Below are positions 8,223 to 22,775 of a stretch of 64,000 nt of DNA, in pieces. Location: NCBI GenBank assembly GCA_011390155.1, contig JAABSW010000010.1, forward strand, positions 1 through 64,000, read 5' to 3'. Each line of letters begins with the position of its first letter. The stretch's first letter is position 1. The notes beneath the pieces were generated by a model. The model saw only the letters and a program-made list of their open reading frames with translations. It ran no database searches and was not told the DNA's origin. Both the position numbers and the translations under genes were made by a program. The stretch comes from Clostridiaceae bacterium (GTDB taxonomy: Bacteria > Bacillota > Clostridia > Peptostreptococcales > Tindalliaceae).

Positions 8223-8271
8223 TATGGTAAATAAATCCTTTTATTTGAAAGTCAACAAATGGCATCAGCTG

Positions 8272-8280
8272 TGATATAAT
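8272..8280 (+). promoter_or_regulatory. Extended -10 promoter for the RNA leader and asp23-fakA
   Basis: TGA-TATAAT is a consensus extended -10 element. No good -35 box lies at 16-18 bases, which such promoters can tolerate. Predicted transcription starts near 8287, about 20 bases before the closing helix of the structured RNA element. Confidence 0.6.
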
Positions 8281-8305: not shown

Positions 8306-8500
8306 GGTTTAATTTATCCGATGACTAACGTCGCTATGACTCCTATTTTTGCAAGAAGGAGATAAGTGGTGCTGCGTCCCTGGATGAACAAGGTAAGTAT
8401 CTGCCACCAAATGTTACATTTGGGACATCTACTTATGAATAGCGCATTCTAACCTTCTGGTGGAGTTGAAAGTCTGCCAGAGGATAAGAATCCTGTTTTT
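8306..8500 (+). ncRNA. Structured RNA element, copy A (unassigned class)
   Basis: This fills most of the gap between rpmB and the Asp23 gene. It shares seven ordered blocks with copy B near 22.6 kb, including CCGATGACTA (8318-8327), AGAAGGAGATAAG (8354-8366), AAGTATCTGCCACC (8395-8408), CATTCTAACCTT (8445-8456) and AAGTCTGCCAGA (8470-8481). TTATCC (8314-8319) can pair with GGATAA (8482-8487), and GGTTT with GAATCC outside it, closing a domain of about 190 bases. CGCTAT can pair with ATAGCG inside it. A small AGGAT/ATCCT hairpin followed by five T overlaps the closing strand. There is no open reading frame. It could be a cis-regulatory leader, a stand-alone RNA or a dispersed repeat. I do not recognise the class. 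Confidence 0.65.
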
Positions 8501-8533
8501 ATGAAAGAATTAAATTTGTAAGGAGGTACAAGA

Positions 8534-22593: not shown

Positions 22594-22775
22594 GATTTAG
22601 CCGATGACTACCACCGCTTATCTCCCTCTTTTGAAAGAAGGAGATAAGCCATGCTGCATCCCAGTTCAAGATGAACAAACGAAGTATCTGCCACCTACGT
22701 ATAGATAACACAGAAAACACATTCTAACCTTGTGATGGTGTTAGAAGTCCGCCAGAAGTTTAGAATCCATTCTAT
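22594..22775 (+). ncRNA. Structured RNA element, copy B (unassigned class)
   Basis: This begins ten bases after ftsY and is homologous to copy A near 8.3 kb. Matching blocks occur in the same order: CCGATGACTA (22601-22610), AGAAGGAGATAAG (22636-22648), TGCTGCATCCC, AAGTATCTGCCACC (22682-22695), CATTCTAACCTT (22720-22731), AAGTCCGCCAGA (22745-22756) and GAATCC (22763-22768). A perfect nine-base stem pairs CTTATCTCC with GGAGATAAG. TTCTAAC pairs with GTTAGAA around an 11-base loop; copy A has a weaker form at the same place. A clear ylxM promoter lies downstream, so this copy is outside the leader made from that promoter. It could be an ftsY 3' RNA, an independent RNA or a repeat. Confidence 0.65.

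Follow-up and report, generated by a model that had tools for sequence, protein, structure and literature searches.

The stretch upstream of asp23-fakA raises the question of whether a structured block in a 5' untranslated region is a regulatory RNA of the host or something that arrived there. In the window, i.e., the whole stretch of 64,000 nucleotides that was analysed, a structured 185-nt insert (copy A) lies between the promoter and the ribosome-binding site of asp23-fakA, and is therefore probably transcribed. The first-pass annotation had taken it, together with a homologous block (copy B), for a conserved RNA fold, with copy A as an element of the asp23-fakA leader. The family to which both blocks belong is a mobile repeat of many Clostridia, and not an asp23-fakA leader RNA.

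Copies A and B, their relatives and the empty sites

By Pfam, the genes downstream of copy A encode Asp23 and FakA, and the last gene upstream of it, among the genes scanned, encodes thiamin pyrophosphokinase. Copy B is flanked by FtsY-type and YlxM/Ffh-type genes, where the names FtsY and Ffh are our reading of SRP54-type Pfam matches. As had been annotated, the two blocks (8313–8502 and 22596–22775) are homologous, with conserved segments in the same order and diverged spacers in the alignment and by blast (72% identity across B, E 2.8e-17). Neither contains an ORF of 80 aa or more, and the extended -10 promoter expected upstream of copy A was found (Table 1). A promoter scan gave three promoter-like sites in the stretch covered, against 1.5 expected. 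The TGTGATATAAT of the promoter is also present at the empty site of the sister species G001 (L063), and thus the promoter belongs to asp23-fakA. No known RNA signature had been recognised in the blocks, and this was borne out by an Rfam scan, in which no family reached the gathering score in the window or in six loci carrying relatives. The 11 hits obtained up to E 5 in the six loci were all below gathering, and 9 of them lay outside the element.

Table 1. Positions of copies A and B and of the neighbouring signals in the window
Feature	Position	Strand	Remark
Extended -10 promoter, asp23-fakA	8252..8280	+	TCAACA-17-TATAAT with TG; predates insertion
Target pentamer TTTAT, left edge of copy A	8313..8317	+	G001 empty site reads TTGAT/GAAAG (slash, junction); TTTAT is the family preference
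Copy A	8318..8502	+	Full-length form with hairpin 2
Hairpin 1, copy A	8329..8373	+
Hairpin 2, copy A	8394..8435	+	Optional module, missing from compact copies
Guide-like GGATAA position, copy A	8437..8442	+	Reads GAATAG in decayed copy A
Hairpin 3, copy A	8446..8491	+
Right terminal pentamer TTTAT, copy A	8498..8502	+
AAGGAGG, asp23 ribosome-binding site	8520..8526	+	Downstream of copy A; read from the sequence
Left-edge pentamer TTTAG, copy B	22596..22600	+
Copy B	22601..22775	+	Between ftsY and ylxM; older, more decayed

Three pairings proposed from copy A did not hold for the family. The closing helix of TTATCC (8314) with GGATAA (8482), the inner helix of CGCTAT (8332) with ATAGCG (8439), and the contact of CCACC (8404) with GGTGG (8459) are each fully paired in copy A, but in none of the 25 other aligned copies. 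For the CCACC/GGTGG contact, 15 of the 25 copies have no letters at these positions, and the remaining copies retain 3–4 of the 5 pairs. Within the family, TTATCC does pair with a GGATAA, but this 3' partner lies between hairpins 1 and 3, outside hairpin 3.

The view of two related loci also gave way to that of a multi-copy family with about 40 dispersed copies in this genome. A blast search with copy A gave 45 matches in the 2.72 Mb and 125 contigs of the assembly, and a covariance model trained on 17 compact copies gave 42, of which a few are one place matched on both strands. The copies occupy unrelated loci on both strands. The seven best other copies are 84–86% identical to copy A, with one exception at 79%. 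That the spacers of copies A and B have diverged reflects the age of both as copies of a mobile repeat. The first-pass annotation had named a hit to a mobile repeat or to an Rfam family as evidence against its RNA reading; in substance, a mobile repeat is what was found, though the family is absent from Rfam.

Among relatives, blast detected the family in 14 of 60 genomes, this genome included; in two of these (G011 and G047) the listed matches span only hairpin 2. With the covariance model, matches were obtained in at least 40 of 297 genomes of the order and at least 33 of 391 genomes of the class, this genome being included in both counts, which are lower bounds because stricter filters were used. 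A deeper search of three genomes gave 108 (G007), 70 (G235) and 32 matches. A pattern scan of named genomes yielded 94 stretches of DNA with the element, and the carriers among 80 of these are Tindallia MAGs, Clostridiales 38_11, Eubacteriales C8, Tissierellia CSBr16_49, Soudan_22, Clostridium bovifaecis and a few others. A full-length Tindallia-type copy was also seen on a contig labelled as PVC group bacterium (L089), which is probably mis-binned or transferred. A search of phage and plasmid collections with one compact copy gave no match. In open-access literature searched by title and abstract, no description of the family was found; of four 12–15 base stretches of the element, one occurs in an insect paper, which we took as chance.

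In none of the eight other genomes read (L063–L070) does the asp23 leader contain the element, so that it is not conserved there as a leader RNA would be, and when 26 loci around asp23 and ylxM homologues in 11 genomes were searched with two profiles of the element (E cut-off 1), only the two loci of this genome matched. Likewise, copy B is missing from the ftsY-ylxM gap of the eight other genomes in which an FtsY-type gene stands before ylxM in the stretch read (L077–L083 and L086); L084 and L085, in which other genes precede ylxM, fall outside this count. For 13 sites of this genome, the flanks were joined and searched in four relatives. Seven of them (A, L002, L004, L006, L008, L019 and L025) gave G001 alignments that run across the junction, in some cases with small indels close by. 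Site L005 was empty in G002 and carried an apparent decayed copy in G001, L003 and L016 matched on one side only, and L007, L015 and L018 gave no match in the four relatives. The element is mostly intergenic: complete insertions fell inside an ORF of the rejoined flanks in 8 of 76 cases, as compared with 301 of 380 control points. A leader RNA, a riboswitch and a 6S-like RNA were rejected on the ground of the empty orthologous sites and the multi-copy spread.

Fold, ends and target of the element

The unit consists, in order, of CCGATGACTA, hairpin 1, GTCCCT, GGATAAC, hairpin 3 and the terminal CTGTT[T/G]AT. It measures 128 nt in the compact form and about 183 nt with an extra hairpin. Compact copies were 128–129 nt in 56 of 66 distinct copies selected by a regular expression, which itself fixed a length range. 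The third hairpin (hp2) is often present in Tindalliaceae copies, between CCCTGG and GGATAAC. Hairpins of this type (AAGTAGAT...ATTTnGTGG...TACTTA) were also seen alone or arrayed away from the full element (L041 (G011), L040, L053 (G047)), and hp2 may have been a REP-like repeat in its own right before the Tindalliaceae form acquired it. Reduced variants exist without hairpin 1 (L022) or without hairpin 3 (L011). Further hairpins are inserted into hairpin 3 in L109 and L113.

Copy A folded as RNA beats 199 of 200 shuffles (z -3.2), and a consensus-like copy reaches z -5.8. DNA folding of a compact copy gave the same two domains with z -9.9. An alignment of 17 diverse copies showed two-sided changes for 16 of 31 pairs, and 89.5% of the cells were paired. 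The covariation score was reached by none of 500 shuffles, which ignore the relatedness of the copies, and dropped from 0.318 to 0.122 or less when the partners were slid by 1–3 columns. The fold of the family is real and conserved. The annotated conserved RNA fold thus stood as regards secondary structure, homologues outside this genome and covariation, and fell as regards an element of the asp23-fakA leader or a host RNA kept for its fold. Within subfamilies (four sets), stems were only slightly less variable than unpaired positions, with change rates of 0.028–0.056 and 0.043–0.065, respectively. Changes on a single side of a stem were G.T in 37, A.C in 63 and other in 79 cases, showing no excess of G.U over A.C. 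Given these near-equal rates and the lack of a G.U excess, we see no indication that individual copies are under selection as RNA. A.C changes were in excess (p 0.012).

The ends could be mapped exactly. The left flank was TTTAT at 82 of 141 distinct left ends, with T as the last base in 98%, and the element begins with CC. Of 110 right ends, 47 terminated with TTTAT and 46 with TTGAT, and no conservation was detected beyond the terminus in any of this set. The left and right pentamers differed in 70 of 105 complete copies. Moreover, the 47 copies ending with TTGAT had TTGAT on the left in one case and TTTAT in 23. This mismatch, together with the TTGAT pattern, indicates that the right pentamer belongs to the element and the left one is the target, which is not duplicated. 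Terminal inverted repeats were not found; compared as such, the two ends match at 3 of 10 bases in one subfamily and at 2 of 10 in another.

Copies were also found inside or against each other. In L115, a complete copy lies in the hairpin-1 loop of another one; host letters flank it on either side, nothing is duplicated, and the end of the locus falls inside the host copy. Whole elements stand head to tail in L039 (G013) and L043 (G007), where each starts at the right terminal pentamer of the preceding copy. Element starts are repeated 33–37 nt apart in 10 of the 94 stretches. Here roughly the initial 35 nt of the element, interrupted at the hairpin-1 loop, are repeated directly in front of another copy. 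Besides L115, these are L099, L112, L120, L156, L175 and L177, in which the distal half of the host copy is missing where it is expected, and L090, L147 and L152, in which the arrangement is cut by the end of the locus.

Guide-like pairing and the source of the enzyme

Just 5' of hairpin 3, ATAACG pairs with the terminal bases of the element around one bulged base, and pairs 5 and 6 covary around it. Pair 5 was C-G in 13, G-C in 11, T-A in 7 and other in 1 of 32 copies. For 21 distinct combinations, 107 of 126 cells were paired against 88.7 in shuffled sets, a level equalled in one of 10,000 shuffles, where related copies inflate the result. On the other side, the left target TTAT can pair with the same ATAA, 3' of hairpin 1, closing the hairpin-1 domain with 2–4 of 4 pairs in the 32 copies. 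The partner, GGATAA, lies on the far side of hairpin 1, and not 5' of the hairpin foot. Guides reading ATTA or ATTG allow at most 3 of 4 left-target pairs while the target stays TTTAT.

In IS200/IS605 elements, the target beside the left end is contacted by a guide located immediately 5' of the hairpin foot, and at the right end a corresponding guide contacts the final tetranucleotide (PMC6006769). Group A IStrons insert after TTGAT, ATTAT or TTTAT (PMC4227781). This end anatomy is the ground for reading the family as a non-autonomous mobile element of the single-strand-DNA type, and we consider it probable that copies A and B are old copies of such a small element with IS200/IS605-type ends, moved as single-strand DNA in trans. 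The top strand would fold as single-stranded DNA, and a Y1/HUH-type transposase supplied in trans would bind the hairpins. Cleavage at the right end would be positioned by the sequence immediately 5' of the last hairpin, which would pair with the terminal pentamer and may in addition recognise the target pentamer on the left. Once excised, the strand would be joined 3' of a new TTTAT without duplication of the target. More tentatively, one guide (GGATAAC) could serve both ends by pairing alternately with the left target TTAT and its own 3' terminus GTT[T/G]AT, which would make the family an undescribed, Clostridia-wide class of miniature single-strand elements. The exact ends, the target rule and the covarying guide make this single-guide idea directly testable. 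If it is true, the element would be a minimal 128-nt transposon, in which one switch sets the choice of end and target, and which has spread to about 100 copies in a genome without an encoded enzyme.

No autonomous copy or parent element was found among the 94 stretches and the other loci examined. Of the 5' ends that had no near 3' end, L172 alone had one further on, and it was rejected as an autonomous copy, because ordinary genes lie there between separate copies. This genome has one Y1 gene, of IS605 type, and its 3.4-kb locus has no element match. G007, with its 108 element matches, has two weak Y1 matches in loci devoid of the element, and G241 has one partial match. No Y1 gene was found in G001 (75% complete) or in G002. 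A Y1 match was present in 45 of 60 relatives, carriers or not. None of the fetched Y1 loci (L061, L182–L210 and L298–L318) contained an element match, and Y1 or RAYT genes flanked by the element, considered as candidate partners, did not occur in the Y1 loci scanned. As for the replication strand, no bias was detected in two near-complete genomes among the matches listed (G007, 51 of the 94 listed out of 108; G235, 15 of the 34 listed out of 70), and strict fork-coupled insertion is therefore not supported there. In the draft loci, 83 of 131 copies were on the G-rich strand (p 0.003).

Competing explanations and known systems

The most serious competitor is a mobile element moved by unrelated machinery, such as a different site-specific recombinase or strand exchange that recognises the fold, its likeness to IS200/IS605 being convergent. 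Carriers without a Y1 partner, the balanced strands in G007 and G235, and insertion into the element's own hairpin loop and at its own right ends would all suit this explanation. Nevertheless, we judge it rather unlikely, since the left-only T-rich pentamer, the lack of duplication and the guide-like pairing of the right terminus match IS200/IS605, and the target is common to the element and group A IStrons. An improbable alternative is a mobile RNA, in which the folded transcript finds TTTAT through the internal ATAA and is inserted by reverse transcription. The strong RNA fold of the consensus-like copy and the pairing of the left flank with an internal stretch, like exon-guide pairs, speak for it, whereas G.U does not exceed A.C among the stem changes (37 vs 63), Rfam gave no match at gathering score, and the element is far smaller than group I or II introns.

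That the host has domesticated copy A as a regulatory RNA or a protein-binding site kept in the asp23-fakA leader is very improbable. Its place between promoter and ribosome-binding site, and hence its probable transcription, fits such a role, but the site is empty in the eight other genomes read, the guide consensus is lost in copy A, copy A differs by about 15% from most of its best matches, and the decay of the copies in general gives little evidence that their fold is under selection. Scarcely any weight is left for a miniature inverted-repeat element of the classical type, moved by a DDE transposase and making a 5-bp target duplication. TTTAT does stand on both sides in 31 of 105 copies; in 70 of the 105, however, the pentamers differ, TTGAT at the right follows the subfamily and not the site, and the ends are not inverted repeats. 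We rejected this candidate, as there is neither target duplication nor terminal inverted repeat and the TTGAT subfamily contradicts it.

The preferred reading, a non-autonomous element with IS200/IS605-type ends, changes the meaning of the locus. What was taken for a leader RNA now marks a large family of mobile repeats in Clostridia, with members lying between promoters and the genes of core operons. It also calls for caution, because conserved, covarying blocks of 'structured RNA' can be mobile DNA hairpins. Standalone HEARO/IscB omega RNAs are dispersed structured units tied to IS200/IS605-like mobility, as the element probably is here; the element differs from them in having no Rfam match at gathering score, and no nuclease link was shown for it.

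The ends of IS608, ISDra2 and group A IStrons (PMC6006769, PMC4227781) share with the element a T-rich tetra- or pentamer on the left only and no target duplication, subterminal hairpins at both ends without terminal inverted repeats, and a guide-like stretch 5' of the right hairpin that pairs with the final bases. Non-autonomous IS200/IS605 derivatives such as PATEs also belong to these closest systems. Unlike IS200/IS605, the element has no tnpA or tnpB in the unit and no parent element was found for it; the whole unit is the fold (two or three hairpins), and the left pairing uses the other side of hairpin 1. It also lacks the strand bias of IS608-like elements in the two near-complete genomes.

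The BOX repeats of Streptococcus (boxA-boxB-boxC; PMC3049150) resemble the element in being modular, structured and interspersed, with an optional middle module. They belong to another host group and have another module plan, and the element stands apart in that its target and ends are mapped to the base. We know of no sequence common to BOX and the element.

REP/REPIN sequences with RAYT (TnpA-REP) transposases are likewise many intergenic, non-coding palindromic copies forming single-strand hairpins (PMC6006769). The element is not an inverted pair of short REPs and has no constant GTAG tag, and its ends and target are defined; moreover, no fetched Y1 locus carries a copy. In L208 and L209, RAYT-like Y1 genes are flanked by short repeats of their own, of the GGGGTCAGGC or GGGGACGG type.
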